A DNA stretch of 64,000 nt from Cytobacillus oceanisediminis 2691 (GTDB taxonomy: Bacteria; Bacillota; Bacilli; Bacillales; Cytobacillaceae), in the NCBI RefSeq assembly GCF_000294775.2, contig NZ_CP015506.1, forward strand, positions 3,199,501 to 3,263,500, given 5' to 3'. Below are positions 42,188 through 61,773 of this stretch, piece after piece. Position numbers and translations under genes: made by a program. The first letter of the stretch is position 1. Each line of letters opens with the position of its first letter. Under the pieces are notes generated by a model. That model was not told where the DNA came from. It worked only from the letters and a program-made list of their open reading frames with translations, and searched no databases.

Positions 42188-42447
42188 TATGCTCTCCTTA
42201 CTAATTGATAGCTTATTTAGTATAGTATTAATATACCAGTTAGATGGAAGAATTGTACTATTTGGAGAAAATAATTAACTACAATTTTGAAACTAAAGTC
42301 AAATAGTTATTTACGTATAGGAGGACATCCATTGAAAAAAATAATAAAGGCTACGTAGCAATAATTGAAAATAGAATAGGAATATTTTATGACTAAAAAC
42401 AGTAGTGTTTTACCTAATATTGTTTATTTTCATTAAAAAGCATATAT

Positions 42448-42480
42448 AAAAAAGGCCTTGAAATGACTAGCATCTCAAGG
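42448..42480 (-). terminator. Terminator next to the tRNA-like fragment
   Basis: On the minus strand CCTTGAGATG, short loop, CATTTCAAGG, then CCTTTTTT. It lies immediately downstream of the tRNA-like 3' half, as for a real tRNA gene. Between it and the NERD gene (42188-42447) I see only AT-rich DNA. Confidence 0.75.
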
Positions 42481-42491
42481 TCCCTGTATTA

Positions 42492-42541
42492 GTGATTTCG
42501 ACTGGGTTCGAACCAGCGACCTCTACCCTGTCAAGGTAATC
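42492..42541 (-). other. tRNA 3'-half fragment, likely integration (att) scar
   Basis: The minus strand shows a complete anticodon arm (TTACC, loop TTGACAG with GAC at the anticodon place, GGTAG), variable AGGTC, and a complete T-arm (GCTGG, TTCGAAC, CCAGT), then an acceptor-like 3' strand. No D-arm or 5' half is found upstream, so it is not a full tRNA gene. Such 3' halves are what phage or ICE integration at a tRNA leaves behind. GGTCACCTTTTCGGTCAC close upstream (about 42642-42660) resembles the end of some phage-integrase genes, but this is weak. Confidence 0.5.
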
Positions 42542-42696
42542 CTTTAATTAACCTTTGATGTACTATGTTAACTCCAAGGTTAAGATTACTATGAGTTACA
42601 ACAACATTTTTATAGGTACTTTTACCTATAGTATCCCCTAATTAACCTTAAGAATGTGACCGAAAAGGTGACCAATTTAACGTATTGATCAAATAG

Positions 42697-44325
42697 TTAA
42701 TTTACAACTGCAACCACTTCATGACTTACTGGTATCTTATATATTTCGACCTTTATTCCTAATCTCCTTATTAAATTTACATGATGTAACAAGTTTACTT
42801 TACTAAAGAAAGGTAGTACATTCCTAATATCATCGGTTTTAGATGTAGATATGGCATATACTAAAGTACATTCATTGAAAGGAAAATTCTGTTGGTTAAA
42901 ATTTACTCTAGGGAATTTTTCTAAAGCCTTATTTACTAGAGATTGTCTATATTCACTAGATTCTCTCAATAGTTGCATTGAAACTGACCCCTGTGCAAAA
43001 AGATGACTTAATGTAGCTGAACGAGTTTCTTTTTTTACACAAACAAAATGCTTATCCTTGGAGAGTAAATCGCAAACCTCAATCTTACTTCTTGAGTTTC
43101 GAATTTGGAAATTCTGTTTATCCATATTTAAAAAGTAATCTGAATTCTGTCTATCATTATAACTTCCCTCTGATTCATCAATTAGTATAGGTGTAAGAAA
43201 GGTTGGATCCTCAACAAGTGGCACCCTCATTATTTCTTCCTGTATTCTAGAAAAGTAATCATTATCAATCTTATACCAATTGTTTAATGAAAAAATGTAA
43301 GTATTCTCGTTTAATTCAGTTTGGAAAATAATAAAATGATTTAAAGTGACTGGTGAAGTTACTGGATGTTCTGCTTCATCAAACCCAATAATTTTAATTT
43401 TTTTAATATGGTCTGCTGAGTCAAACACTACACCCTCTTTATCTAATAATGAATAGAGATCCATTAAGTTAACTTCTTCAGTTTCCACAGTTTTCGTACC
43501 CTTTTTTATTTTATAACTAGAACACTTTTCATATTCAATCATATCAGGATATGCTAAAGAGATATTATGAGTTTCACGCCTGTTAAGGGCTTGAAATAGA
43601 TTATTATTTAAATCCGAAGTTACATCCCCGTCCTTGACTATTTTAACGTTATCTATAAAGCCAAAGTTTTCTTTGTAATCATCACTGAGAAACAAATCCA
43701 ATAATTGGTTGCATTTTTCTCCTAGTGTGGCAAAGGTTACATCACTGTTTAAACTAAGTGAAGAAGTAGATCCCTTTATAGATGTTCCAATTCCCTCATC
43801 CCTTGATTTTCCTGATACTAAGTTAATAAGATCTTGTTCAAAATTGAGATCAAATTCGCCTAGTTCACTACCCTTATTTATTAGGACTCTTTTTTGCTTT
43901 GTTTTAAGATCAATATTTCTTACGTCAAATGCCTTTAATTCTGTAGAATCAATAGAATTAAGTGCAACTTTTAATCCGAAATTGTTCTCCAAATTGTTCC
44001 TATCAATGGCTGTAAATCCAAAGCCTCCCGTTATAGCAAAAAAATAATCAGTCTGATTCTTATTAACCTTTACTAGAATAACAAATGAATTGACAGTATT
44101 CTTTATGTCGTCCCTGTTAGGAATCTCTAGATCATTTTCTAATAATGTTATCCATTTTGGTTCCTTTGTTCTGTTTCTTTGTATAAATACTTTAAATTCA
44201 AAACCTAATTCTGTATTCCTAGGCTGTAACTCAAAGTAGTTATTCTGTTCGTTAACTTTTTCAGGTAATATTAGCTGATTGAAATTAATAACATTTTCAT
44301 TAAAGAGATAGTATGATAATTTCAA
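42697..44325 (-). CDS. TIGR04141 / DUF6119 family sporadically distributed protein
   Basis: 542 aa, cytoplasmic. It matches the family plan: an N-terminal part with FFAITGGFGFTAIDRNNLEN near 95, a beta-rich middle, and the C-terminal block SATLSHLFAQGSVSMQLLRE near 440 followed by a region ending in a DNA- or nuclease-like fold (YAISTSKTDDIRNVLPFFSK). The family is patchy across bacteria and often lies in defence or mobile regions. Its biochemical role is unknown. TTG start after GGGAGGTG. Codon use is markedly AT-rich. Confidence 0.75.
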   Translation of the reverse strand: MKLSYYLFNENVINFNQLILPEKVNEQNNYFELQPRNTELGFEFKVFIQRNRTKEPKWITLLENDLEIPNRDDIKNTVNSFVILVKVNKNQTDYFFAITGGFGFTAIDRNNLENNFGLKVALNSIDSTELKAFDVRNIDLKTKQKRVLINKGSELGEFDLNFEQDLINLVSGKSRDEGIGTSIKGSTSSLSLNSDVTFATLGEKCNQLLDLFLSDDYKENFGFIDNVKIVKDGDVTSDLNNNLFQALNRRETHNISLAYPDMIEYEKCSSYKIKKGTKTVETEEVNLMDLYSLLDKEGVVFDSADHIKKIKIIGFDEAEHPVTSPVTLNHFIIFQTELNENTYIFSLNNWYKIDNDYFSRIQEEIMRVPLVEDPTFLTPILIDESEGSYNDRQNSDYFLNMDKQNFQIRNSRSKIEVCDLLSKDKHFVCVKKETRSATLSHLFAQGSVSMQLLRESSEYRQSLVNKALEKFPRVNFNQQNFPFNECTLVYAISTSKTDDIRNVLPFFSKVNLLHHVNLIRRLGIKVEIYKIPVSHEVVAVVN

Positions 44326-44585
44326 TAAATAGCACCTCCCTAAGATTCGAGTGAAATCAGTATATTCTCTGAAAATATAATACCATAATTTTCAACTCTC
44401 ACGGCAAAGGTTTTACTTTTTTTTACATAAAGAGGTCTATACTGCAAACACCACTCAAATCTTAAACTCCATGTGTACATTAGCTTTATAAGCTCAATAA
44501 ATTACTGTCTTTCAGTTTCCTTTAACAATCCATTCAAAAATTTAATATTAATATTGGAGTTTAAAAAGACTTTAAGCTCAAGGTT

Positions 44586-44684
44586 CTAATTAATAAACTG
44601 ACCTAAAATTTCTTCTCCATGAAATTCCAAGTAATCTTGAAGATATGATCTAATTTTGTTTCCCTTATCCTTTCTTATTAACTT
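44586..44684 (-). pseudogene. Short coding-like remnant between the TIGR04141 and HNH genes
   Basis: A 32-codon frame without a start codon, overlapping the 3' end of the HNH gene in another phase, reads RSYLQDYLEFHGEEILGQFI before a stop. It looks like the end of a deleted protein gene. I do not recognise the family and the call is weak. The remainder of the gap 44326-44585 holds nothing I can support. Confidence 0.25.
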
Positions 44685-45465
44685 CTATTATTTGTTGTAG
44701 ATCTTCCACTTCCATTACTCTATCTCTTCTGCGGTGTATCATACTATGACAGTTTGAACATAAAGGAACTAAATCTTTTGAAGGATCTATAATTGTTCCC
44801 TCTTTGATATCCGAGAGCGGAATAACGTGATGAACTTCAATAAAATTCTTGGCTAAATCTTTTCCATAGAATTTATCAAAATTGAAATTGCAAGCTTTAC
44901 AGGTTGTTCCATGTATTTCAATCGCTTTGGCCCGATTCTTAAGACTCCGTTCATAACTGACATGAATTTTAACCTTTTTGTCCCCTTCTTTGTCTGCTAT
45001 AAATTCTCTTTCTATTAGGCTCGTTTTATTCTGCTCTGTAGAGAGAGCACTAGCGCTTACAAACAGACTTACAGAAGTGGATAGAATAAAGATACTCGGT
45101 TTATCAGAATTTATTTTAAAATCTACTAAAAATACTCTTCCATAATAAGTAAAATAAGTGTGATGGATATCGCGATAAAAAAGAAAAATTGACTCGTTAT
45201 TTATCTCTGCATTAATTAACCTTTGATCGTTGAAATGACTAATTTCCCCCTCCATATGAAGTAGACCTTCCTCTATGAAGTAATCGTTATACTGAGTATC
45301 TGATTTTTGCTTAATCTTAGTTACAAAAAGGATAATTTTATGATCATTTGCTGGAGTGATAATCCCGCGACTGATTGCTTGTCTCCCTTTATACCCCCAT
45401 ACTAATGATAAAGCATCACGATCATATTTCTTTCCTATTTCTAAACTTTCCATACTAATTGGCAT
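44665..45465 (-). CDS. HNH endonuclease with N-terminal DUF3427-like domain
   Basis: 266 aa. The C-terminal HNH domain (about 195-255) reads CKACNFNFDKFYGKDLAKNF, then IEVHHVIPLSDIKEG with the catalytic HH pair, and LVPLCSNCHSMIHRR. The N-terminal half (KYDRDALSLVWGYKGRQAIS, then FYRDIHHTYFTYYGRVFLVD) resembles DUF3427-type domains found in defence helicases and HNH restriction enzymes; this second match is from memory of the pattern and less certain. It lies upstream of the TIGR04141 gene on the same strand but with a 340-base gap. Likely a modification-dependent or type II-like restriction nuclease. Confidence 0.75.
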   Translation of the reverse strand: MPISMESLEIGKKYDRDALSLVWGYKGRQAISRGIITPANDHKIILFVTKIKQKSDTQYNDYFIEEGLLHMEGEISHFNDQRLINAEINNESIFLFYRDIHHTYFTYYGRVFLVDFKINSDKPSIFILSTSVSLFVSASALSTEQNKTSLIEREFIADKEGDKKVKIHVSYERSLKNRAKAIEIHGTTCKACNFNFDKFYGKDLAKNFIEVHHVIPLSDIKEGTIIDPSKDLVPLCSNCHSMIHRRRDRVMEVEDLQQIIEVNKKG

Positions 45466-45853: not shown

Positions 45854-47011
45854 CTAGGCATTCACTTCAACCTTTGTTGTTTCAACATCATCTATTTCGA
45901 CCTTCTTTTTGCCCTTCAAATTCTCTAATTGAAGCTTGGGTGTTGGGCGAACAGCCTTATAGCTCATTCCTGCAAAGGACATTAGGATTGCTTCAAATAC
46001 TATCTGCGCTCCCTGTGGAGGGACGGCCATTCCAATTTGCTTTCGGACTTTCTCTTTGCTTCCACAAAAAATAAAATCATCAGGAAATGTCTGAAGGCGG
46101 GCGCGTTCTCTGTTAGTCAAAGCACGAGGTTCTTCCCAATGATACATATGGGTTCCGCCCCCGCCGCTTCCAGTAACCGTGTATGCTGGTCTGTTAGGAT
46201 CAAGTCTTTTATAAATTGAACTGAGTCGAGCCCCTTTTACGTTCAATCGCAGGTGCTCATCTATGCCAGGGTACCATGCATTTTCTCCGGCAGGAATTTG
46301 CATCAGCATGTCTTTTACCTTTTTTGTATGCTTAGGCATTTCATGATTAGGAGCTCCTTCTGGAATTGCAGGATAAGTAATAGCCTCTAATGAGGTTTTG
46401 TACTTGTCAGGAGTAGTCGGTGCAGGAACTTTAAACTCAACTCCCTCTTTTGATAAATCATTGCGAATACCAACAATTATTATTCTGTGTCTTGCTTGTG
46501 GCACCCCATATTCTTCAAATTTATAAAGATGGGGTGTTAATTTATAGCCGCATTCTTCAAGTTCTGTGAGAATTTGAATAAAGGCTTGTCCCTCATTAGC
46601 GCTTTGAAGGCCACCAACATTCTCTGCAACAAAGAACTTTGGCTGATACTCTTTCAGGACTTTTACTCCGTATGAATAGAGAGGTCCAAAGGTGCCATTA
46701 AGTCCATGTTTTTCTCCCACTTGGCTGTAATCATTGCAGGGAAATCCAAATGCAAAGCAATCAATTTCACCAAGTATCTCTTTATTTCCAATTGGCAGCT
46801 CTTCTACCGAACCATGATGTACAGATGGATCATTTATGTCTCCGCATATATTTAGAGCGAACGTTTCACAAGCACTGCCATCATAATCATTTGACCATAA
46901 GTGCTCTATCTTCCACTCTTCTCCTGTTAACGGATGAATGACTTTAGCATTTTTTGCGCCTAAGCTTAAGCCTCCTGGGCCGTTAAATAGCTCTCCTTTT
47001 TTAAATATCAT
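45854..47011 (-). CDS. DNA (cytosine-5) methyltransferase
   Basis: 385 aa. Motif I is NGPGGLSLGAKNAK near residue 10; motif IV, with the catalytic Cys, is FAFGFPCNDYSQVGEKHG near 90; motif VI is FVAENVGGL near 130; motif VIII is PQARHRIIIVG near 180. The target-recognition region lies about 200-290, motif IX is RERARLQTFPDDF, and motif X is IGMAVPPQGAQIVFEAI. It modifies the carbon-5 of cytosine in DNA. It is upstream of HNH and downstream of the AlwI-type nuclease on the same strand, and a vsr gene lies 4 kb away. The recognition sequence cannot be deduced. Confidence 0.93.
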   Translation of the reverse strand: MIFKKGELFNGPGGLSLGAKNAKVIHPLTGEEWKIEHLWSNDYDGSACETFALNICGDINDPSVHHGSVEELPIGNKEILGEIDCFAFGFPCNDYSQVGEKHGLNGTFGPLYSYGVKVLKEYQPKFFVAENVGGLQSANEGQAFIQILTELEECGYKLTPHLYKFEEYGVPQARHRIIIVGIRNDLSKEGVEFKVPAPTTPDKYKTSLEAITYPAIPEGAPNHEMPKHTKKVKDMLMQIPAGENAWYPGIDEHLRLNVKGARLSSIYKRLDPNRPAYTVTGSGGGGTHMYHWEEPRALTNRERARLQTFPDDFIFCGSKEKVRKQIGMAVPPQGAQIVFEAILMSFAGMSYKAVRPTPKLQLENLKGKKKVEIDDVETTKVEVNA

Positions 47012-47116: not shown

Positions 47117-48715
47117 TTAAATCATTTCTGAAATACTCCTATAACCCTTATTAGTAAATAAAGTCATAAACATTTCTGTTCGCTTTTGTTCAGGTATGTC
47201 ATTATCTAAACAGTAATCTAAGAATCCAAGTAAAGCTTTAGCTGAAAACATTCCACCTGCAACTTCCAAAGCCTGAGAAGTATTAACCTTTTCAGATATC
47301 TTCTTTAGATTACCTTCCCCACTCCATTCGCTAGCTGTTATATAGCCGAAATAAGTAACTTTTTTCCCTTCATAACCATTGTAGTTTGGAATATATTCTG
47401 AAGCCATATGTGAAGCCAGGTGGGCAGACAATGGGAATTTCTTTTTATAGTTTTTGGCATCTATTATACAGATCCTATTATTGTCTACATGTAAAACTAT
47501 TTCAATCTCTGTTTGCACCTTTCTTACAACTGGTTTTGGCCTGAGGTCAATTTTGAAGCCGATTGCTTTTAGAATTTCTGCTGTCTTGTCCTCAAAGACT
47601 AAATCATTTTCTTCAAATAAATATGATTCGACAAAATCCTCATTTAGGGATGTAAATTGGTAGTTGTGAAGTTCATAAGCATAGTTTCGTGCCTCTCTCC
47701 TGGAAAACTCCTGCTCAAGAATTACTGTAATCTCTTCTGCAGAAAGCGACTGCAACACCGGATAATTTGATAATAGCCGATGAACCTTTTTAATACTTTT
47801 ACTTCGATTAGTTGATGGAGAAATTCCTCCATAAGCACTTGCCTTATAACTATCTACATCTAATCCAGCATTTTCTGCAAAGCGTTCTAATGAAATTAGA
47901 TAACGTTTATTGAAAGGATACCTTGTATCAAAATTAATTAGTTTTTCAGCAGTACTGGTGCGCAATTCAGAAGGAATCCTTAGGGCATCCCCTCTTACGT
48001 AGTCAACTAACCCAGTGTAATCACACATCATCATAAAAGTATGTGCGACGTCACCATGAGCTGAAGCAAAATCACGGGCTCCATTATCAGATCGCTCTCT
48101 ATGGTCATAGATACTGGCAACTATTTCTTTCATTTTTTTCTTTTCTGTTTCACCAGCAGAACGATAATTAAGTATTTTTTCTGTGACACTCCACAGCTCA
48201 TCATCCTTTTTTGCAGTCAGTGCAAAGAAAGTAATTTCTTCTTTTGTGACGAAGTAATCCAGCTGGCGCTGATTCACGAGCCGGATTAAGAATCTTGCAG
48301 GACGGATTTGAAAATCATTTTCAAACTTGGGTCTAAATCCGCTTTCCAAAAAGTAAGCGTTAGGAATTTGAAGGGTTAGTATTTGCTTCGATGTATTTTC
48401 ACGTATCTTATTTCCTTCAAGAAGCGCTTTACCTACTTTGGTAAGAGATAGGTTTCCGGAAGGAGTAATGTAAACATATCCAAAAGTACGAAGCATAGCA
48501 GCCCATGTCCTGCCTCCAGATCCATCATGACTGATATTATCCCGTTTAAGTCCTTCCGAGGCCAATACTTCTTCATAAAGTTTATGGGCGCTTCTATTTC
48601 TCGACCAAACAATTTGGAAATCATTTGTTGCTATTTGCAGTGCTCGAAGCGCCTCTACATGAAATTTCGGATCTCGTTCCGGGCGTGTAATAAACCATAC
48701 TTTTCTTTCAGGCAT
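47117..48715 (-). CDS. AlwI-family type II restriction endonuclease
   Basis: 532 aa. Starts KVWFITRPERDPKFHVEALR, the family hallmark, followed by a helical DNA-binding region. The C-terminal nuclease domain (about 405-450) shows the PD-(D/E)XK-type core IEIVLHVDNNRICIIDAKNY with D-A-K. AlwI-family enzymes recognise short asymmetric sites and cut outside them; whether this one does is inferred. The ATG has AAGGAGG nine bases upstream, inside the end of the preceding HTH-like gene (8-base overlap). The methyltransferase gene follows, so the three genes form an R-M unit. Confidence 0.8.
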   Translation of the reverse strand: MPERKVWFITRPERDPKFHVEALRALQIATNDFQIVWSRNRSAHKLYEEVLASEGLKRDNISHDGSGGRTWAAMLRTFGYVYITPSGNLSLTKVGKALLEGNKIRENTSKQILTLQIPNAYFLESGFRPKFENDFQIRPARFLIRLVNQRQLDYFVTKEEITFFALTAKKDDELWSVTEKILNYRSAGETEKKKMKEIVASIYDHRERSDNGARDFASAHGDVAHTFMMMCDYTGLVDYVRGDALRIPSELRTSTAEKLINFDTRYPFNKRYLISLERFAENAGLDVDSYKASAYGGISPSTNRSKSIKKVHRLLSNYPVLQSLSAEEITVILEQEFSRREARNYAYELHNYQFTSLNEDFVESYLFEENDLVFEDKTAEILKAIGFKIDLRPKPVVRKVQTEIEIVLHVDNNRICIIDAKNYKKKFPLSAHLASHMASEYIPNYNGYEGKKVTYFGYITASEWSGEGNLKKISEKVNTSQALEVAGGMFSAKALLGFLDYCLDNDIPEQKRTEMFMTLFTNKGYRSISEMI

Positions 48716-49184
48716 CTGGTGAGTCCTCCTTGCTGGCTTGCTGATTTATTAATTTTTTTATTTCTCGAAAATATGATAATTCTTCTTTATTAAGCTTTCT
48801 TTTTGATTCTAGTGATCCCCAATCTCCTAATAGGTCTATAAGAAGCTCCTCTTCTGAAGAAACGAACTGTGCAATCTGAGCTGAGTTTTCTTCTTCATCA
48901 GATAGGTTTGAAATTACTCGTGCGATGTCTAATACCTTATCATCAAAGACCGCTGACAAAGAATACCCATTAAGGTCTATCTCTGTATTTATAACAGAGA
49001 AAATTTTTGCTAATGAAGAGATTTGAATATCTTCACTTTGATTGTAAGCATCATTAATCCAATTACCTTTCCTTCCTGTTCTAGAGCTTACTTCCTTATG
49101 AGATAGCTTTGCTTTTGAGATTAATACATCTAAATTTGTTAGAAGCCTATATAACAAGGCTCTCTTAAATAAGCCTTTCAACAC
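48708..49184 (-). CDS. Small HTH-like protein upstream of the restriction enzyme (possible controller)
   Basis: 158 aa. The N-terminal part (LLTNLDVLISKAKLSHKEVS, then SRTGRKGNWINDAYNQSEDI) has the layout of an XRE-like helix-turn-helix; the C-terminal part is acidic and helical. It overlaps the restriction gene by eight bases, so translation is coupled, a common layout for R-M controller proteins. The start is uncertain: GTG at 49184 has only a weak ribosome site. DNA binding is inferred. Confidence 0.65.
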   Translation of the reverse strand: MLKGLFKRALLYRLLTNLDVLISKAKLSHKEVSSRTGRKGNWINDAYNQSEDIQISSLAKIFSVINTEIDLNGYSLSAVFDDKVLDIARVISNLSDEEENSAQIAQFVSSEEELLIDLLGDWGSLESKRKLNKEELSYFREIKKLINQQASKEDSPDA

Positions 49185-49339: not shown

Positions 49340-49723
49340 ATGCCGCGTTCTGGACAATATTTTGACGTTGAATTAAAGAGAGCACATTTAAATTGGGGAA
49401 CTGAAGGCGCCTCTAGATCAGTTTATCGAAGAAATGAGTATGAAGTCTATATTCCGATTAGCATGGATAACGCCAGGAGATATACTATCAGACCAGGAGA
49501 ATTGTTCCATTGTACTTCAGCTGATGGGTTTTTCCACGGACCGCTCAAAGCAACTGGATCTCAAGGAAAACTTCTAGAATACGGGAAAAACTTTCACAAA
49601 GAAGGTGATTTACGTGCTCTAGGCTATTGGTTGAAAGACCGGCATAATGCAAGAGAAGGGGATATCGTAAGGGTAGAGTTTACAGGGGAAAATTCTATTT
49701 TGTTACAGTTTTTAAGAGCATAA
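49340..49723 (+). CDS. B3-like (EcoRII-N / NgoFVII-type) DNA-recognition domain protein
   Basis: 127 aa. The pattern YEVYIPISMDNARRYTIRPG, FHGPLKATGSQGKLLEYGKN and LKDRHNAREGDIVRVEFTGE is that of the B3-like DNA-binding fold found in EcoRII and NgoFVII-type restriction enzymes and plant B3 factors. There is no nuclease motif in this protein itself. It overlaps the next gene as TAATG, so it is coupled to the adjacent nuclease-like gene. I infer a split restriction enzyme: DNA reader plus separate cutter. GGGGGAAA precedes the ATG. Confidence 0.7.
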   Translation: MPRSGQYFDVELKRAHLNWGTEGASRSVYRRNEYEVYIPISMDNARRYTIRPGELFHCTSADGFFHGPLKATGSQGKLLEYGKNFHKEGDLRALGYWLKDRHNAREGDIVRVEFTGENSILLQFLRA

Positions 49724-50531
49724 TGAACAGCATGCAATATTTGATTAATGTTCCTATAGAAGATGTTAAACAGTGCTTTTCATTTGCTGAACAATTATAT
49801 CAGAAAAAAGCAGCCAGCCTAAAACAATTTGGAAGAAAACAGCTCATTCGAGAAAAAAATGATTATATTGCGGATCATGTCATAGGGAAATCAGTGGAAA
49901 TAGGCTTCAAAAGATTCCTTGAGATAAATTGTGGAATAAGCTTTAAGGTGGACTTCGATATATGGGAGGATCAGCTGATCCATGACAATGGAAATGATTT
50001 AGCAACTGTTTTTTTCAACGGTGAATCTAAGAAATTCACATTCAAAACAGATATTAAAGGAACAAGGAAATCATCTAAATGGCTCCTGGTGGAACGCCAT
50101 AAAATAGTAAACTTTAATAAAAAATCTATGTTGTTGGATTGCTGGACAGCATACCTGAAGGCAAGGCTTTTGAAAATAACCCTTATGGATATTTGAACCA
50201 CAGTTGGAATGTCAGAATACTGGGGTATGCGTTAAATAGGGATATTGTCGATCCGCAAACAAAGCGAGGATGGATTGAATATAAAAAGGGAGACCATCTA
50301 TATAGTCCATCTATCTTAGAAAAATGCAAATCGAGAAACAGAAATTTATCGCATTCTGAATATCAAAAATTACTAAACAATGTTATAAAAAATATCCCTG
50401 AAAATTGGAATAGACATATTGGAGGACCGCTAGATTGCGAAATTAATTATGGGCTTCCAATAAAATGGTTAAGAAATACAAACCTTGACTGGGAAAATTT
50501 TTGCAAAATTATTCATAAATATTCGAGCTAA
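49723..50531 (+). pseudogene. Restriction-endonuclease-like gene with a frameshift near 50135
   Basis: Two frames make one protein of about 265 aa. The first (from 49723) contains a PD-(D/E)XK-like core with GNDLATVFFNGESKKFTFKT followed by DIKGTRKSSKWLLVE, and the second (from about 50139) continues GKAFENNPYGYLNHSWNVRI and ends with an aromatic-rich tail. The switch falls around 50130-50150, where frame 1 runs on only to 50196. The gene is either dead or read by a frameshift. The cutter partner of the B3-like protein is therefore probably inactive. Confidence 0.7.
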
Positions 50532-51163: not shown

Positions 51164-51332
51164 AAAACGATTTCTTATTCTAGTAAAGCCACTCCAGTCT
51201 AGATTATAGTCAAAGTTTATTCGCTTTTATCAAATATAACATAATAATTTTTTTTATGAATAATGTCAAAAGTGTAATGTCCGGCTCTTCTGGGTAAGAT
51301 TCCAATATAAACCCTAAATCGGACGTGATTCC

Positions 51333-51779
51333 ATGCCTGAAAAAATAACAAAAGAACAGCGATCCCATAACATGAGAGCTATCAAGTCCCAGTCAATGCT
51401 GGAAAATGACATTACAAAGGCTCTCTGGAGGCAAGGCTTTCGGTTTCGTAAAAATGCAAAAATGTTCGGCAAACCGGACATCTCCATAAAGAAATATAAA
51501 ATCGTTATCTTTATAGACTCTTGTTTCTGGCATTGCTGCCCGATTCACGGAAATATGCCAAAATCCAATCAGGAGTATTGGACAAAAAAGCTGGCTCGCA
51601 ATGTCAGCAGAGATCAGGAAGTGAATCAGTATTATCAGGATAACGGCTGGAAAGTGTTGCGCATCTGGGAGCATGAGTTCAAGCAGGACTTTGATGCTGC
51701 AGTTGACTCCATCGCGATTTTTATTAAAACCTATGCAGTTTTAAAGGAAAAACACCCTGAATCTTTATCAGAAGATTAG
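51333..51779 (+). CDS. vsr: Very-short-patch repair endonuclease
   Basis: 148 aa. Family blocks: RSHNMRAIKSQSMLENDI, LWRQGFRFRKNAKMFGKPDI with the catalytic Asp in GKPDIS, VIFIDSCFWHCCPIHGNMPK with the zinc and catalytic residues, and NGWKVLRIWEHEF at the end. Vsr nicks T:G mismatches left by deamination of 5-methylcytosine. It fits the C5 methyltransferase at 45.9-47.0 kb. The stop codon is followed closely by a shared terminator with the AIPR operon. Confidence 0.92.
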   Translation: MPEKITKEQRSHNMRAIKSQSMLENDITKALWRQGFRFRKNAKMFGKPDISIKKYKIVIFIDSCFWHCCPIHGNMPKSNQEYWTKKLARNVSRDQEVNQYYQDNGWKVLRIWEHEFKQDFDAAVDSIAIFIKTYAVLKEKHPESLSED

Positions 51780-51788
51780 GGTGTTTTT
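51749..51788. terminator. Bidirectional terminator between vsr and the AIPR gene
   Basis: AACACCCTGAATCTT pairs with AAGATTAGGGTGTT with one bulged base; T-runs follow on both strands. It overlaps the last codons of vsr. Confidence 0.85.
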
Positions 51789-51791
51789 CTG

Positions 51792-53603
51792 TTAAATTAA
51801 GTTTTTCAGTTCCTGGGAGCAGGTTTCTTTAAACTGTATCCAGCAAGCTTCCTGTTTCGCCCATTGCGTAACGTTCCGCTCACCAGCAGATTCTTTCAGA
51901 TAGAACAAAGTCTTATCTGCAATCGTACGTACGATATCATCCCATTTATCTGAAAGTGCCTGTTCTTCCCATACACCAACCAAATCAATTTGCTCGCTGT
52001 AGAGGTGGTGAAGCATTGCCACTGTATAGTAAATGACGTTTGCCTTGTAGCCTCTCAGCTTCATTTCATCAACGATTTCTTTGACGCGCTGATTAATGAT
52101 GGCTCTCGCAATTAATTTCTGATAGACGGATAGAGTAATCTTATCCTGTGTGCTGCCGCTCCAGAAGCTCTTGTTCAGATCCATGAACTTCTTGAATGCT
52201 TCCTCTCCGCCCTTACTGGAAACATGAGGGTAGCCTTCCCATGACATGAAATATTTGGCCAAATCGACTTTTGTAAGGACCTTATCTTTCGGATACTGCT
52301 TCTTGAAATCGGTCTGTTCTTTTCCTCGCTTGCGTCGGTTGATATCCACCATATACTGGCCTCTGGCACGTTCGAAGTACCATTTGCTTTCTGGTCTTCT
52401 TCCGTCTTTTGCGGGAATCCAGATATTGCGCGAGAATTTTTCCAGGTCGGACATGAAGCGTGTATTGGCCAATAGATCCGATTTATTGATCTTGTTTTGC
52501 GTATTGGCATATTGTGAGATGCGGGAAATCATTTCATCTTCCAGCAGGTGCTGGTCTTTTGAAACAAATTCGTTTACCTGAAGGATTGTCAGTTTTGCCT
52601 GGACGTATACATCCTTTAGGCTGATTCCCTCTTTATAAGCCTTATGGATGGAAGCTGTCGTTTGGCCGCCGTTGACAATTTGCCATCCGCTTAGACCTTT
52701 TATTTTATATTGATTGACTCCATCTTTTACAGGCTCAAAGTCGCCTGTACGGGCTACAGTTGAAATGCCGTTGTTATAGGCAACAAACATTTTCCGCTGG
52801 AATGGATCTTTTAGCGTGTCACGAATGCCTTTGTTGGTTCCGCCCCTTGCCTGAAGGAATGAACGGACATTTCGCTCAACAAGCTTTTGGCCCCATTCGT
52901 CATAGGCTTTAGCAAGAAGCTCAGCTGAAATATAGCCTACATAACAGTCAAATTCCTTTACACCGCTTGAAGGGTCAGGAACAAACATCATTTCAAATGT
53001 TTCACCGTAATCTCTCTCAAAATCAATGTAGTCTGTCTCAATAGCCTGCTCAGATGTGATCAGCTGCTGAACACGGTCAATATCCCATACTTGGACATTT
53101 ACGGTTTCAATGCCCGGAATTGTCAATTCTACCGGCTTGTTTGAAGCATAGTACATGTTTGTCACTACAAAAATATTAATCTCGTTTAAGCTGTCCATCT
53201 CTTCATCAATGACTTTAGCAAGATCGTAAGCTTCTAAAGAATGGTCAATTGTCTGAAGAAGGGACTTGGCATTTGTGACAAAACGTTTTGCCCGATTGGC
53301 GATTTCTGCAACAGCAGTCATGTTGATTGAAAGCAGATCTTCCTCATTCTGCTCAAAATTATAATCAGCCACAAACAAATCTAATACATGATTTTCGTCA
53401 TCAAAAGAATAGGCATTTACGGCAATGTTTTTTCCCGTATCTTTATAGGGAGGGATCAGGATTTCCGGATCATCCGGCCTGTCCATAAAGGAAATCATTT
53501 TTTCCAGGAATGGAACCTGATAGCTGCCTGTTTTTATCGCTTTTTCTTCCAGCTCTTCCATGAAATCGAGGAGAAATTCTTTTCTTTGTCTAGTTTCTAT
53601 CAT
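51792..53603 (-). CDS. AIPR family (abortive-infection phage resistance) protein, Mza-like system
   Basis: 603 aa. AIPR proteins carry a core with FLQARGGTNKGIRDTLKDPF (residues 245-265), then FVAYNNGISTVA, and GLSGWQIVNGGQTTASIHKA (near 310-330), all visible here. The family is tied to phage resistance. It is last of four coupled genes (MutL-like, Z1, DUF4420, AIPR). A predicted nuclease or effector role is inferred from the family, not from a clear catalytic motif. Confidence 0.9.
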   Translation of the reverse strand: MIETRQRKEFLLDFMEELEEKAIKTGSYQVPFLEKMISFMDRPDDPEILIPPYKDTGKNIAVNAYSFDDENHVLDLFVADYNFEQNEEDLLSINMTAVAEIANRAKRFVTNAKSLLQTIDHSLEAYDLAKVIDEEMDSLNEINIFVVTNMYYASNKPVELTIPGIETVNVQVWDIDRVQQLITSEQAIETDYIDFERDYGETFEMMFVPDPSSGVKEFDCYVGYISAELLAKAYDEWGQKLVERNVRSFLQARGGTNKGIRDTLKDPFQRKMFVAYNNGISTVARTGDFEPVKDGVNQYKIKGLSGWQIVNGGQTTASIHKAYKEGISLKDVYVQAKLTILQVNEFVSKDQHLLEDEMISRISQYANTQNKINKSDLLANTRFMSDLEKFSRNIWIPAKDGRRPESKWYFERARGQYMVDINRRKRGKEQTDFKKQYPKDKVLTKVDLAKYFMSWEGYPHVSSKGGEEAFKKFMDLNKSFWSGSTQDKITLSVYQKLIARAIINQRVKEIVDEMKLRGYKANVIYYTVAMLHHLYSEQIDLVGVWEEQALSDKWDDIVRTIADKTLFYLKESAGERNVTQWAKQEACWIQFKETCSQELKNLI

Positions 53604-53606
53604 CTT

Positions 53607-54629
53607 TTATCCTTCCACTCTAAACATTTGGTATATGGTTTCTGGATCTTTCTCATATTCGGAACAATGAGTCAGATCAATATTATAACTTACATGGGAA
53701 ATTCCCTTCGGCAGATTTTCCTTTAAAAGACGAGGGAAATCATCCCCAGCTTTGTAAACCTCTGTTTTTTCCACGAAAAACAAGGTATCGGCATATTCTT
53801 CTTCTCTAAAACCAAGATCAGTCATCAAATCACTATAAATAAGGGCGATTCGTTCAGACCTTTCCGCAAGCTTGGCCCGGACCTGTCCGGCCAGCTCTTG
53901 GAGGCTCATGCCATGTGTCCGGCTTTGTTCAAGGAAGCAGACATATAGATAAATAGAAGATACAGCTTCACTGAGCTTCAGCTGGTTCTCATTAGATATT
54001 TTAATGGTTTTTGATAATTTATCAATGACGGTTTTGATTTCAAGCCCGCATCTGGTGCCTTTGAAGTCAATTCTTCCCTTTGTCGGACCCTCCCACTGTT
54101 CAATAATGAGAGGAGGCTGGCCAGGGTGCTTGTCGAGCCATTCATTGATAAACCATAACTCTCCAAAGAGCCCCCGCTGCTGTTCTTCAGAAAGACGCTT
54201 AAAACCTCCGCGCTGGAAGAAAGTCCTCCATCGATCAAGTACTTTATAGACAGTTGAAAACAGAGATTCTTCCTTTCCAGCTACTAAATGTTCAGCTAGA
54301 TTCTGGAGAACAACATCAAAAATTTCGGAGCTTTGTTCGTCCTCCTGTCTGATCACGAGGAAGTAATGCTGCTTAAGAAGGAAAAGCTTCTCAAAATATT
54401 CTACTTTGACTGACATGCCCCGCCATTTCGGGAGTGCTTTTTCCTGATTATCGTCCCATGCTTCCGTTCCCAGATCAATGTACAGCTGGCGGTGATGATT
54501 CGCAGGATCAATTCCTGCAAACATGACAGGGCTCTCGTATGTCAGGACATTCAGCTTATACACTTCACTGTCATCCTGGCTTTTAAGCTCTTGGATCATT
54601 TGTTCAAACTCTATTTTTAGGTTCAACAC
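53607..54629 (-). CDS. PD-(D/E)XK nuclease family protein (DUF4420), Mza-like system
   Basis: 340 aa. Central segments LFGELWFINEWLDKHPG near 168, then WEGPTKGRIDFKGTRCGLEI followed by KTVIDK, which gives the D...E-x-K set (RIDF, LEIKT) expected of a PD-(D/E)XK nuclease. Starts GTG after AAGGAGAG, 24 bases after the Z1 gene and three bases before the AIPR gene. Expected to be the DNA-cutting subunit. Confidence 0.85.
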   Translation of the reverse strand: MLNLKIEFEQMIQELKSQDDSEVYKLNVLTYESPVMFAGIDPANHHRQLYIDLGTEAWDDNQEKALPKWRGMSVKVEYFEKLFLLKQHYFLVIRQEDEQSSEIFDVVLQNLAEHLVAGKEESLFSTVYKVLDRWRTFFQRGGFKRLSEEQQRGLFGELWFINEWLDKHPGQPPLIIEQWEGPTKGRIDFKGTRCGLEIKTVIDKLSKTIKISNENQLKLSEAVSSIYLYVCFLEQSRTHGMSLQELAGQVRAKLAERSERIALIYSDLMTDLGFREEEYADTLFFVEKTEVYKAGDDFPRLLKENLPKGISHVSYNIDLTHCSEYEKDPETIYQMFRVEG

Positions 54630-54653
54630 AGCTACTCTCCTTAAATAAAGTTA

Positions 54654-57299
54654 TTAGACCGTTTTATTAGTCTGGTAGACATTTGTATCGTCAATTTCAG
54701 TCCCCGGGAAAGAGAATGCAATTCCAATAGGAACCAGTTTTGACGAGAATCTAACATCCAGACTGTTAAAGATCGGCACTTCTGGATGCAGAGGATAAAT
54801 TAGCATTAGCCCCTTTTCCTTGTCACGTATTCTGCGTTTCTCTGTACGGTCTTTGATTCCTTTAATTTCTTCATAATCAAGATCCATATATTCGTGGTTA
54901 GGAGACACAATGGCCCCAATGTCTCTGATTTGATCCTTGCTCTCAGGCGCTCTCACTTTCTTACCAAGAGCGGCTGCCGATTTCAAATGGATCTTCCCTA
55001 ATTCAACAGGATAATCTGACAGTCCAGAAGATGCTGAAGGATCCCCTTCAACTACTGCCACTGTCCAATCCGTCAGCTCTCCCTCTTTATTCACACGGTC
55101 AATATAATCGGCTATTAAAACGGAATTAACGATATTGCTGTCAGCAGTCTGATATTCTGACAGGTATTCTTTAATCATGTCTGAATTCACGCCAGATGCA
55201 GCATAAAAGTTGGTTCTTCTGTAAGTTGTCTTTTCTAAAGGAAGCTTATTTGCCAGCTTGACAGTGGCCTCCATATTTCCTTTAATGACTTCTTCACTTG
55301 GATCAAAAAGCCTTGTCTGCTGCAGGGTACCTGCATAAATGACATTAGAAGATACTGCATTTCTCATTTTCAGCGGGCTTGTCAGCTTCATCGTCGGATG
55401 GCTCAGCATCTTAACGGCATATTCAGAAGGTGTTTTTTTCATTGCAGCAAGACGGTCGAATTCCTGGCGCAGCTGAATCATCGCAATGGCCAGATGTTTA
55501 AAATTTGAAGCTATCTCATCAGATGTATAGATGCGGCAAAGATCCATGTAGCCCTTTCTGTATCCAAACCAGCGCCCCATCTGCATGAGCGCGTCATACA
55601 TAAGCGAGTTCCGGAAGTAATAGGTGATGCTTAAGCCTTCCAGTGTTAGACCGCGGGATAATTTGTCTCCGCCTACGGCTATTACATTCAGGCCATCTTC
55701 TTTATATTGGTGGTAATCCAAAGCATCCCGGCTGTTGCCGTTAATTTCGAAAACCTGAATTGTCTCACAGCATTTTCTCAGTTCTTCATATACTTCATCC
55801 CAGCTGAATTCTGGATGATTTTCATTTGGCCAATCCCTGCTAGTTGGAAGGATATCATTTTCATAAAGCTCCTGAAGCTCTGCAATCACACTGCTTTCAG
55901 GATTATACTGAAGCTGTTTTGAGATGGCATCAAAGGTACGCGATACTTCATCTTTTACGCTTGACTGAACGTCCTTGAAGCGTGATGTATGAATGAGCAT
56001 CGAATTATGCTTCTTTCTTTGCCCTCTCAGATTTCTGACTGCAATTACAAGAAGGAATTCCAGCATCGCTTCACGCATTTGCGGAGGCACCTCTTCGAAC
56101 TTATCTGCATCAGATTTCTTTTTAATTGTCGTAAATACTTCAAGGTCTTCCTGGCGCAAATGGCGGATCAGACTTGGGCGAGTATCTTCAGCATCCTCTT
56201 CCACATTGAAGTATTCTTCAGGTCCGCAATATTCCTTCGGCTTTGGCAGGCCGACAAGGAAATCTTTCGGATATAGGTCATCCCCTTCTTCCTCTGTTCT
56301 TCCTTCTTTGCTGATTAGAAGGTTAGCGAAAGGAGTTGCTGTATAGCCAACAAAAGCTTTTCGCTTAAATACCTCAAGGATTTGCCTGATCAGACGATTG
56401 ATAGTTTTCGGGTCTTCACTTTTATCCGGATTGGAAGTGTCAACAGATGCCTGGTCAGCCTCATCATCAACAATTAAAACTGGGATATCCAGATTATATA
56501 AATCTCGGTGGTTGATTAACTGGTCTCTGAGGGATTCCAGAACCGTTTTATTTTTCTTTACAACCATCAAGGTTGGCGAGTTCAGGTTGCTGGTTCCTCT
56601 CTGGCTGGACTTAATATCATTTACTTCTGTTGTCCAGGATGAAATGATATGCTCTGCTGTATTCGCATAAATCTGTGCAACTCCGATTGGATTTCCATCC
56701 TTATCTGTCCGGTTCCCGATTACCTCTTCATTCAAGCGGATCTGTGTCTGGGCTCTTAAGTCATTATGTATTCCAGACAGAACGATGATTAGTTTATAGC
56801 CAACATCGTAAGCTTTGTTGATCAAACCAGTGAAATTGGCTGTTTTACCAGACTGGACATAACCCAATACAAGGCCGCGCTTATCGAATGGCTCCATGGA
56901 CTTTGGATTTCCAATCGAAGCCATAATCTGATTGGTTGTTTCATCAATGGCAGTAACGGCCTCAAGCGGCCAATTTTTTGTTTCGGACAGATATCTGCGG
57001 TACCTGGTCCAGAAAAATCCGCTTGCTGCCATTTTAGGCTCAAACCAGCTTTTTTCTTTCGAGTTCCTCATGACATAATCCTTGGGAACCTCCAAGCCAA
57101 TTTTGTATTTCATGAACATTTCAAGAGACCATTTCTGAAATTGTGCATCATCAATTGGACCAAACCCGGATGCCAATACTCTCGCTAATTCGAGTGCTTT
57201 TTCTGCTGCTTCCTCAGAATTTGCAGAGTGGGCTTTTAACATATAATAGTTATTCGTAAAGGCCTGTTCGAACAGGCTCTTATTATCAATTGCTGACAA
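54654..57299 (-). CDS. Z1-domain superfamily II helicase-like protein, Mza-like system
   Basis: 881 aa. P-loop GLVLGYVQSGKTANFTGL near residue 165, Walker B VPVLIVDDEADQASVD near 275, motif III VGYTATPFANLLIS near 315, the Z1 block AVGGDKLSRGLTLEGLSITY near 545, and the arginine-bearing MQMGRWFGYR near 575. These are the diagnostic elements of Z1 proteins, the ATP-dependent motor of MutL/MORC-linked restriction systems. TTG start after GGAGG; it overlaps the MutL-like gene by 14 bases, so the two are translationally coupled. Confidence 0.92.
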   Translation of the reverse strand: MSAIDNKSLFEQAFTNNYYMLKAHSANSEEAAEKALELARVLASGFGPIDDAQFQKWSLEMFMKYKIGLEVPKDYVMRNSKEKSWFEPKMAASGFFWTRYRRYLSETKNWPLEAVTAIDETTNQIMASIGNPKSMEPFDKRGLVLGYVQSGKTANFTGLINKAYDVGYKLIIVLSGIHNDLRAQTQIRLNEEVIGNRTDKDGNPIGVAQIYANTAEHIISSWTTEVNDIKSSQRGTSNLNSPTLMVVKKNKTVLESLRDQLINHRDLYNLDIPVLIVDDEADQASVDTSNPDKSEDPKTINRLIRQILEVFKRKAFVGYTATPFANLLISKEGRTEEEGDDLYPKDFLVGLPKPKEYCGPEEYFNVEEDAEDTRPSLIRHLRQEDLEVFTTIKKKSDADKFEEVPPQMREAMLEFLLVIAVRNLRGQRKKHNSMLIHTSRFKDVQSSVKDEVSRTFDAISKQLQYNPESSVIAELQELYENDILPTSRDWPNENHPEFSWDEVYEELRKCCETIQVFEINGNSRDALDYHQYKEDGLNVIAVGGDKLSRGLTLEGLSITYYFRNSLMYDALMQMGRWFGYRKGYMDLCRIYTSDEIASNFKHLAIAMIQLRQEFDRLAAMKKTPSEYAVKMLSHPTMKLTSPLKMRNAVSSNVIYAGTLQQTRLFDPSEEVIKGNMEATVKLANKLPLEKTTYRRTNFYAASGVNSDMIKEYLSEYQTADSNIVNSVLIADYIDRVNKEGELTDWTVAVVEGDPSASSGLSDYPVELGKIHLKSAAALGKKVRAPESKDQIRDIGAIVSPNHEYMDLDYEEIKGIKDRTEKRRIRDKEKGLMLIYPLHPEVPIFNSLDVRFSSKLVPIGIAFSFPGTEIDDTNVYQTNKTV

Positions 57300-58764
57300 T
57301 CAAATTCGCCTCCGTTGTGATTGCTTTTAAGGTTGCCCGGTTCAGGCCGTCAAAGGCCGGCTGGGTTAAAAGAATGTTAAACAGCTGTTCTTCATTATCC
57401 GCCACATTAAGGTTCAGCATGGAAGAAGCAAATTGGATAACCAGCTCTTTCTGACTGTCCGGCACTTCCTGCACTTCCTCTTCCGGTACCTTTGGAGAAT
57501 CTATAATATTGCTTGGCGAGCCAAGCTGAATAAATTTTAGATACAAGTTTAATAGCTTTGCATTTTCATCATCCAGGTTTTTAAGCAGTTCAGAAAGGAT
57601 CGGATGATTTCGGTTCAATATAAATTGCGGCCCATCTTCGCTTCCCGACTGCTCCCATGTATTCAGGCTGCCTTTTACAGAAGGATTCCTTGGCCCTGGC
57701 TGGGTGCGGAAATAGAAAATATCTCTTGAGACTTTACGTGCAATGGATGAAATGGCCTCAAGCCTTCTTTTTGCATCTTCCGGCAGGTTGATGCCCGACT
57801 TTTTAATATCCACCTGCCAGTCAGAGTCCGCAGCATTCGGAAGATCAATGCGCACCCTGGCAAGCTGTGAAGCTGCATCCTTCGGGAATAGACCCATCCA
57901 ATCTCCGAAGTATAGAAGTCGATTTTCACGGTAAATATATAATCCCTGGTGATCACGCCAGCCTTTATACCCGCCCGCCTTCTTATATTCCGGCTCTGTT
58001 AAATGAGACGCATGCGGCAGTATAAAGTACTGTACCTTAATTCGGTTCTCATTGATCCTAAGTATTTGCATTTCGCCTTCCATAGTATTTGGATGATACC
58101 GCATGAAAGGATCCCATGGCACAATTTCCTTTCCGTTAATGAACATCTCGACTTCACTCTTTTCGAGAATAGAATGGAATACGAATTCGAGATGTCTATT
58201 AATCCGGGCCACTTTATTATAGAAGCTGGTTTCTTTCAGCTTGCGCTTGCCTCCATAACCCATAAAGCGGTCAAGCTTATCAATGCAGACTATTGTTCCG
58301 CTTTCGGATTCAATTTCACCCATTTTTTCTTTTACTTCTTCCGGTATCCTGGTGAAAAGCTGCCATTCATTGCATTCTGATACATGATCCAGGTCCCAGC
58401 ATCTTTCGTTATAAACTCCATCCTTTTTGGAAAGAACACTTAACCGTTTCCCCAGCGAAAAGGATGCAGTCTTTAAACCCATTCCAAATCGTCCGAGTTC
58501 ATTCGCACCCCTTTTTGCTCTCGGATCCTTAGAGCCAATATTCATGGCTGTCTGGAGCATCTCTTCATCCATGCCCGAGCCATTATCAGAAATTGTAATC
58601 ATTCCATCACTTTCGCCATAGGCGAAATTAATATGTATTTTAACTGCCCTGGCATCCAGGCTGTTGTCAACTAAATCAGCAATCGCTGTATTAGCGTTAT
58701 ATCCAATCGAACGAAGCGCTTGAATAACAGGCGCTGCAGAAGGTCTCGTCAGTACTGTTTCCAT
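57286..58764 (-). CDS. MutL/MORC-like GHKL ATPase, Mza-like system
   Basis: 492 aa. GHKL motifs: N-box IADLVDNSLDARAVKI (where MutL has E-x-x-x-N), G1 ISDNGSGMDEEML, G2 ELGRFGMGLKTASFSLGKRL, then a transducer-like domain (about 200-340). Proteins of this type act as an ATP-driven clamp in the restriction systems that gave rise to eukaryotic MORC proteins. It is the first gene of the operon, ATG after CGGAG. There is no sign of a MutL-type nuclease C-terminus, so it is unlikely to be a mismatch repair MutL. Confidence 0.9.
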   Translation of the reverse strand: METVLTRPSAAPVIQALRSIGYNANTAIADLVDNSLDARAVKIHINFAYGESDGMITISDNGSGMDEEMLQTAMNIGSKDPRAKRGANELGRFGMGLKTASFSLGKRLSVLSKKDGVYNERCWDLDHVSECNEWQLFTRIPEEVKEKMGEIESESGTIVCIDKLDRFMGYGGKRKLKETSFYNKVARINRHLEFVFHSILEKSEVEMFINGKEIVPWDPFMRYHPNTMEGEMQILRINENRIKVQYFILPHASHLTEPEYKKAGGYKGWRDHQGLYIYRENRLLYFGDWMGLFPKDAASQLARVRIDLPNAADSDWQVDIKKSGINLPEDAKRRLEAISSIARKVSRDIFYFRTQPGPRNPSVKGSLNTWEQSGSEDGPQFILNRNHPILSELLKNLDDENAKLLNLYLKFIQLGSPSNIIDSPKVPEEEVQEVPDSQKELVIQFASSMLNLNVADNEEQLFNILLTQPAFDGLNRATLKAITTEANLIVSN

Positions 58765-59231
58765 TCGAATAACTCCGTTTCATTACTAGGTTTGTAACAA
58801 TTATAACAAAAATTTAATATATAAATAGGTAGAGATGGGGATTTACTTATATTTACATATAGAAAATAAATTTAAGACAAAATCTTAACAGAATGGAGTC
58901 CTACTACTATATAAATACCATATCAGATAACCCTATCAAAAAATAAAAATGGTCTAAGAAAATAGAAATAGAAAATGAAAAATCTGACACGGATATTGAA
59001 ATGCCTTACTTTACTATGGAAATGACACCAACATCAACAATCACGCAACTAATTGATGGAGTTAACATACTGCCACTTTAATGGTCTCCAACTTCCATAA
59101 TGGTTGTACCCTAAAGACAAATATGAATACTGCCTACCAGTGGATTGCCGGCACTAAATGAATCATACAAACCAGCTATAAAATCCCATCCCATGATAAA
59201 ATACTAAATATATACTCTAGTAAAGGAATGA
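58765..59231. other. Intergenic gap at the right edge of the defence island
   Basis: AT-rich DNA holding the promoter of the leftward Mza-like operon and that of the rightward UvrC-like gene. A short coding-like run (about 58957-59082, ending ITQLIDGVNILPL before a stop) has no start codon and no recognised family. I see no repeats or att-like sequence that would mark the island end. Confidence 0.4.
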
Positions 59232-60251
59232 ATGTCCATTAATCTCCCAGACAAGGTGAAAAACCTGCCCTTAACTCCAGGCGTATACCTGATGAAGGAT
59301 TCGCAGGGTCAAATTCTGTATGTGGGGAAGGCGAAAAATCTAAAGAATCGGGTTCAGTCTTATTTCCGGAACTCTAATAATCATTCACCAAAGATTAAAA
59401 AGCTGGTCAAACACTTAAGGGATTTTGACTATATCCTGACAGATACTGAATTCGAGGCTTTTATGCTTGAATGCCAATTAATTAAAAGCATTAAGCCGCT
59501 ATATAATCGAATGATGAAGAGTCCGCAGTCATTCATTTATATTTCGATCAGCCTTACCGGCAAGCACCGTAAGATTGATATTGCCTATAATCCCATTGAA
59601 TATGACGGCAAGGTTTATTTTGGCCCTTATACAAGCCGAAGCAATGTTGAGAGAGCTCTCCGGGGGTTAAAGGAATGCTTTAAATTGGATTGCAGCAATC
59701 CCAATGGGACGAACTCTGCCTGCCTGAATTATTCCTTAGGCTCATGCCTAGGCCGGTGCCTTGGGGGGCCTGCGGAACAAACGTACAATGACATCCTGGA
59801 CAGGTTTATCGGTTTTCTGAAAGGCACAGACATGAGTATTTTTGAGGACTTGAATCAAATGATGTTGAATGCATCTGAAACCTTTGATTTTGAAGCGGCG
59901 TCAGCCTATCGGGATCACACACAAGCAGTAAGCTCCCTGTTAAAAAAAGAAAAAGTGATCGGATTCACCGAAGAAAATCATAATATCGTCGCTATCGAAA
60001 GATTAACAGATTCTACTATTAAACTTTTCCTTATTAAAAGGACGGATATTCTGTACAGCGACAACTATGCAGCAGCAGGCAACATTGAGGAGAAAATAAA
60101 AACGGACATTTCAGCTTATTTTAAAAAAGATGAAGCAAATGCAGCTGGTGACATTAGCAGACATGAAATCGATGCAGCGCATATTATTTACCGCTATTTA
60201 CATAGCGGCATCTGCTCTTATCTTCATTCCAGAAAACTGGCTGGACCCTGA
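59232..60251 (+). CDS. Short UvrC-like GIY-YIG endonuclease (Cho-like)
   Basis: 339 aa. N-terminal GIY-YIG nuclease: LTPGVYLMKDSQGQILYVGK, then AKNLKNRVQSYF, with the catalytic Arg in the latter and Glu in the following FEAFMLECQLIKS. A cysteine-rich segment follows (CFKLDCSNPNGTNSACLNYS, then CLGRCLGG), which may bind a metal cluster, and a UVR-like motif (ASETFDFEAASAYRDHTQAV) near 215-235. It lacks the UvrC C-terminal endonuclease and HhH domains, so it is about half of UvrC and resembles Cho. Probably 3'-side incision in DNA repair. Confidence 0.85.
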   Translation: MSINLPDKVKNLPLTPGVYLMKDSQGQILYVGKAKNLKNRVQSYFRNSNNHSPKIKKLVKHLRDFDYILTDTEFEAFMLECQLIKSIKPLYNRMMKSPQSFIYISISLTGKHRKIDIAYNPIEYDGKVYFGPYTSRSNVERALRGLKECFKLDCSNPNGTNSACLNYSLGSCLGRCLGGPAEQTYNDILDRFIGFLKGTDMSIFEDLNQMMLNASETFDFEAASAYRDHTQAVSSLLKKEKVIGFTEENHNIVAIERLTDSTIKLFLIKRTDILYSDNYAAAGNIEEKIKTDISAYFKKDEANAAGDISRHEIDAAHIIYRYLHSGICSYLHSRKLAGP

Positions 60252-60309
60252 GAATCATTCCACCTTGGATCTGGAACTAAAGAATTTATTAAATAACCCT
60301 CAACACTTA

Positions 60310-60347
60310 CAGCCCCCTATTTATAATGAATAAGGGGCTGTTCTTAT
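60310..60347 (+). terminator. Terminator of the UvrC-like gene
   Basis: CAGCCCC, 17-base loop, GGGGCTG, then TTCTTATT. About 60 bases past the stop. Confidence 0.7.
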
Positions 60348-60400
60348 TACTCTTCTCTTCAGGTAAGACCGATCTGTAACAGGCATTCCATGCAAATGAG

Positions 60401-60430
60401 CCTAATCAGCTAAAAAAACCGCTGATTAGG
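60401..60430. other. Perfect 10 bp hairpin
   Basis: CCTAATCAGC, TAAAAAAACC, GCTGATTAGG. It lies between two convergent genes and may help to end transcription of the TPR gene, though no T-run follows on the minus strand. Confidence 0.5.
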
Positions 60431-60447
60431 ATCCTCATTCGTGATTT

Positions 60448-61512
60448 TCAGTTCACATACTCAATCCCAAAAGCCTCATCCACCCTAAACAAAACAGTAA
60501 AAGGAACCGACTCATTAAAATAATAAGCAGTCTCCCCCCTATACTGAGTAACATCAATAATTTCAGGTATATCGATTGATCTAAGAGTAACTCTCACTCT
60601 TTCAATAGATTTAATAAAGGTGTTCTTCTTCACCTCTCCATCATTGCCAGTCCTTCCAAAGAAATCACGCATGGTGATTCTCGTACAAGGATTCTCCTTG
60701 CTGGAGGACAGCAGGAAGTGTCTGATCATATGGGCCTGGGTTGGGGTGATGATAGCTTCCTCCCCATTGAATAAGAGAATATTTTCGCGGTCATTAAAGT
60801 ACAGGACCAGTTCATTAGGTTCACTGTTTTCGTAAAGGTCTTCACATGCTTCCTTTGAACAGGTTTCGGTATTATTTTTTGTGATTTTGTAGAACGCGTG
60901 GTTCTGTAAGTATTTTTCATTCGATGACAATGTTTCAAATAATGGTGACAGCTCTGGATTCGGCAGCTGCTCCTCCGGCAAATATGGGAGTTTTTCCATC
61001 GTTTCATAGGTCTGGCTGGCAACGTATAAAGCGCTGTTGGCCAGATACATGTGGGCATGGAGTTCCTGCTGCTGATTAAGGGCGTATCTTGGATCATTCA
61101 TCAGCTGCTTGTTCAGGGCTTGCTGAAAATAGCGTACGGCTGAGCCATACTTGCCATGTTTATAAGCCAGAAAACCAAGTCGATAATAGGCAATGGGAAG
61201 TTTTTGCTCTAAACCGATGGCCCTGATCAGCGATTCTACAGCATCACCGTCATTCTTGAAGTGATTCATTTTTATGTAGGGACCGAATTTAATAAGATGG
61301 GATATAAAAACATTTTTAGTATGCTGAAGGGAATGATCATATTGTGGTCCATTATTTCTCGCTAAACTTTTAAGCTTTTTATACATTGTTTCATAGACGA
61401 TCACCAGCTGCATGTAATAGCCATAATCGCTTTTTTCTCCGTTTTCGTGAAGATCCTGTTCAAGCAGCCCCAGCTCGTCCAGGGTTAAGTCTTTTATCTT
61501 TAAAGTCCTCAT
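60448..61512 (-). CDS. TPR-repeat protein with C-terminal winged-helix-like domain
   Basis: 354 aa, cytoplasmic. TPR-type helices lie near residues 95-150 (LPIAYYRLGFLAYKHGKYGS, then AVRYFQQALNK) and 160-200. The C-terminal third (about 245-340) reads ILLFNGEEAIITPTQAHMIR, KNTFIKSIERVRVTLRSIDI and ends with beta strands, which resembles the winged-helix layout of transcription factors. No family name can be given. GGGGTG precedes the ATG. Regulation or protein-binding role inferred only. Confidence 0.6.
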   Translation of the reverse strand: MRTLKIKDLTLDELGLLEQDLHENGEKSDYGYYMQLVIVYETMYKKLKSLARNNGPQYDHSLQHTKNVFISHLIKFGPYIKMNHFKNDGDAVESLIRAIGLEQKLPIAYYRLGFLAYKHGKYGSAVRYFQQALNKQLMNDPRYALNQQQELHAHMYLANSALYVASQTYETMEKLPYLPEEQLPNPELSPLFETLSSNEKYLQNHAFYKITKNNTETCSKEACEDLYENSEPNELVLYFNDRENILLFNGEEAIITPTQAHMIRHFLLSSSKENPCTRITMRDFFGRTGNDGEVKKNTFIKSIERVRVTLRSIDIPEIIDVTQYRGETAYYFNESVPFTVLFRVDEAFGIEYVN

Positions 61513-61773
61513 CCCTACACCCCATTTCTATTAAAAAGTGCCAGGCATTGACACCGCATCTATTACGAATTAAGAACACTTTCAACTATATAGAAATCAT
61601 TCCTCCGTTGCGCGCGAATATTGTCGAATGAAATATGAATTTTTTGTTGCGAATCTCATACATTATAGGTGGCTTAGATCTTTTAACTTCTCCTATATTT
61701 ACTTGAGCTTGAAAAACAAGAACAAATGTTTTATGATTTATCTATAATATCCAACGAACGGAGGAAACGATTG

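Follow-up and report, generated by a model that had tools for sequence, protein, structure and literature searches.

How does an anti-phage operon fare once the methyltransferase typical of its sister cores has given way to another? The question is raised by four coupled genes resembling the Mza system in Cytobacillus oceanisediminis 2691 (NZ_CP015506.1, positions 3,199,501 to 3,263,500; this whole stretch of 64,000 nucleotides is hereafter the window). A first-pass annotation had described a complete operon. Our analysis shows that this core is not complete: in the window a methyltransferase of a different class stands in place of that of the sister cores, and in genome G046 one of a third class does. 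No description of such an exchange was found in open-licence papers.

The core operon

Judging from its sequence, the core is a known kind of anti-phage operon. The MzaABCDE system is said to go back to Gao et al. in 2020, and the window has adjacent homologues of MzaB, MzaC, MzaD and MzaE in the same order (PADLOC 2.7e-82, 1.2e-146, 5.9e-16 and 3.6e-75). The four-gene core proposed at first pass is confirmed. As a difference, the MzaB, MzaC and MzaE homologues, which the NCBIfam equivalog scan covered (the DUF4420 protein lay outside it), score far under the cut-offs (304, 590.5 and 344 bits against 850, 1500 and 1050 bits). MzaA, given as a sigma factor in a section of Miller et al. (2022; PMC9523054), was not among the matches listed for ten neighbours (for the methyltransferase, the best 25 of 61), and the genome was not searched for it. 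We found no worked-out mechanism for Mza-like systems in open-licence papers, in agreement with the earlier remark that none is worked out.

According to sections of Iyer, Abhiman and Aravind (2008; PMC2292703), third-type MORC operons comprise a MORC ATPase, a superfamily II helicase with a C-terminal DThhQXuRhFG motif and a protein of restriction-endonuclease fold; cytosine methylases and Vsr-type endonucleases often lie close by, and a figure legend names AIPR; eukaryotic MORC ATPases are placed among the relatives of such systems. The window has all of these components in common with the third type, and differs in that its methyltransferase is not the one carried by sister cores. The MORC signature GhXhhpXXRhl reads GLYIYRENRLL in the S5 domain of the translated ATPase (residues 274-284), whose conserved columns are all kept (55/55) and whose closest solved structures are MORC4, MORC3 and MORC2 (E ~1e-6). 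The helicase motif reads DALMQMGRWFG (residues 569-579), with a single departure, A in place of T. The relatives of the core had been well named at first pass.

The DUF4420 protein carries E157, D188 and E197-x-K199, the E-D-ExK pattern of the additional restriction-endonuclease-fold gene, although the fold match itself is weak; it is probably a nuclease. The model of the AIPR protein (predicted local distance difference test score, 84.7) is similar to restriction-endonuclease folds over residues 1-190, a part with no conserved E-x-K, and shows a weak ParB-N/SspE likeness over residues ~215-372; the protein may act as a reader or switch subunit. All four reading frames are open and every conserved column is intact, E197-x-K199 included.

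Loss of the class-I methyltransferase

The window is 96.5% identical to locus L035, from a Bacillus metagenome-assembled genome (assigned through its twin, L127), over 51227-61723, right-hand flank included. In L035, L037, L040 and L041, a class-I methyltransferase gene is the next one beyond Vsr. Homology with L035 stops at 51227, about 85 bases short of the start of that gene, and when the window's genome was searched with the class-I protein, the sole match at E 1e-10 or better was one of 39%, covering part of a 385-aa C5 methyltransferase of another class. Because the homology ends before the gene and the genome search found no class-I enzyme, the methyltransferase of the sister cores has been lost from the window. 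In the Type II putative defence system of Miller et al. (2022; PMC9523054), a cytosine methyltransferase is among the core genes; the window has a C5 methyltransferase 4.8 kb off, of another class, in place of that of the sister cores.

What is left includes a promoter-like site (51269-51241) that aligns with the region preceding the class-I gene in four relatives; the gene it would drive is gone. The site is the best promoter match of the region, where promoter-like sites are not commoner than in shuffles. Also, the window Vsr shares one branch with the Vsrs of the class-I loci L035, L037, L040 and L041 (99/92), and appears to be of the kind that goes with the lost enzyme. Overall, the interpretation given at first pass is partly supported.

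Vsr was considered as an indicator of target specificity and rejected as evidence. In Bacillaceae, the Vsrs of class-I, CglI-class and TANMG-class loci mix, with a mean identity of 61-63% between groups and 66-71% within them. Vsrs from distant Bacillota that adjoin class-I enzymes, however, are only 36-41% identical to the Bacillaceae ones; some Vsrs beside other enzymes do as well or better, one reaching 50%.

The replacement module

The 385-aa methyltransferase lies 4.8 kb from the core and is 67-85% identical to six plasmid methyltransferases adjoining AlwI-family enzymes. By tree and recognition segment it is of the CglI class, a replacement and not the sister cores' enzyme. The AlwI-family endonuclease beside it, probably its partner, has matches in 16 plasmid records; each of the nine plasmid regions opened has a C5 methyltransferase next to such an enzyme, together with a small protein upstream. 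The coupled 158-aa protein had no family match in library searches; a homologue (41% identity) stands at the same place on a Priestia plasmid.

CglI and NgoAVII are described as ATP-dependent restriction in a section of PMC4267653. Their R-protein has a phospholipase D (PLD) nuclease and a B3 domain, whereas the window has a B3-only protein, and the RE_NgoFVII PLD had no match among the window proteins scanned. The PD-(D/E)XK-like frame that follows appears interrupted near 50150. Its first piece had no match in plasmids or viral contigs, and its pieces, each searched apart, had none in family libraries.

Methyltransferase classes across related loci

Neighbourhoods were compared for a fixed methyltransferase partner, as proposed at first pass. 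Only class I or II occurs in 46 of 55 loci, one of them with another enzyme in 4, and neither in 5; these labels follow motif patterns, and six or more of the named loci duplicate family loci. In L031 (G070) and L149, a methyltransferase close to the core has the recognition segment SARYYKDG, which we take to be Dcm-like.

In ordinary restriction systems, specificity usually drifts. Less selected than the within-class conservation are the class counts above and the mirror comparison, for which loci were chosen by overall profile score (71 kept; two-core loci and those with low-scoring methyltransferases dropped). The control was 27 enzymes, part from a phylum draw and part other-class enzymes of our own tree, with class-motif enzymes removed; 28 enzymes of one kind or the other failed to parse and were left out. 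Where catalytic identity was 35-45%, recognition identity was 24% in the control and 41% in class II; at 45-55%, it was 37% (27 pairs) against 65% in class I and 57% in class II, the within-class conservation being partly by construction because labels were partly assigned from motif strings inside the recognition domain. In the usual methyltransferases the recognition region is conserved, a departure from ordinary restriction systems.

Fate of the core

Two possibilities are about evenly balanced: protection by the new enzyme and silence of the core. The core could be a silent or toothless relic, kept after the methyltransferase loss only since it is unexpressed or inactive, and bound to decay. 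The recognition regions of the 385-aa and L035 class-I enzymes are only 30% identical, so overlapping targets are not evident, which favours a relic, as do the apparently interrupted frame nearby and the ratio of nonsynonymous to synonymous substitution rates (dN/dS) of DUF4420 and AIPR, slightly higher than in L035 in some comparisons, in a mosaic locus. However, the four frames and all conserved columns are intact, the dN/dS of the core is 0.027-0.062 against L037, L038, L040 and L041, and G046 shows a similar swap, with a TANMG-class enzyme, beside an equally open core. We hold a relic to be rather unlikely.

An isospecific takeover, in which the CglI-class enzyme methylates the core's target, or one containing it, and has harmlessly replaced the class-I enzyme while the core restricts as before, is somewhat doubtful. 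That the module is an unrelated restriction system, landed by chance in a defence hot spot and functionally independent of the core, is given a little less than an even chance.

Genomic surroundings

Left of the replacement module (41339-45465) lie a NERD protein, a DUF6119 protein (542 aa) and an HNH protein that matches type IV restriction. A GIY-YIG protein (59232-60251), presumably like the N-terminal half of UvrC, forms the right border of the island. L035, L038 and G048 carry relatives of it on that side as well, G048 in two frames and L038 with one further gene between. In G048, a genome of the same species (L101, L102), the site of the window's island is occupied by BREX and a type IV restriction enzyme.

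Table 1. Features of the core and of the region to its left, in window positions.
Feature	Position	Strand	Evidence
C5 methyltransferase (385 aa), CglI recognition class	45854..47011	-	Pfam DNA_methylase 5.1e-71; tree and recognition segment
AlwI-family restriction endonuclease (532 aa)	47117..48715	-	PADLOC REase_II 1.6e-226; Pfam RE_AlwI 5.1e-7
158-aa protein coupled to AlwI-family enzyme	48708..49184	-	
Stand-alone B3-like DNA-binding protein (NgoFVII_C type)	49340..49723	+	
PD-(D/E)XK-like frame, judged by eye	49723..50531	+	two overlapping frames, 49723-50196 and 50139-50531
Promoter-like site TTGACA-17-TATTAT	51241..51269	-	consensus scan, 11/12; alignment
Vsr mismatch endonuclease	51333..51779	+	Vsr 7.8e-23; TIGR00632 7.9e-40
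AIPR protein (MzaE-like)	51792..53603	-	Pfam AIPR 2e-80, AIPR_N 2e-24; PADLOC MzaE 3.6e-75
DUF4420 PD-(D/E)XK protein (MzaD-like), probable nuclease	53607..54629	-	
Core gene	54654..57299	-	
MORC-family GHKL ATPase (MzaB-like), first core gene	57286..58764	-	Pfam HATPase_c_3 3.8e-34; PADLOC MzaB 2.7e-82

Significance

Near-identical cores are found in three methyltransferase situations: class I (L035, Sporosarcina globispora), the TANMG class (G046) and the CglI class (the window). With these situations, whether the core reads the methyl mark, and through which subunit, becomes a matter of directly comparing methylomes and knock-outs. The methyltransferase replacement offers a natural experiment on how self and foreign DNA are told apart.
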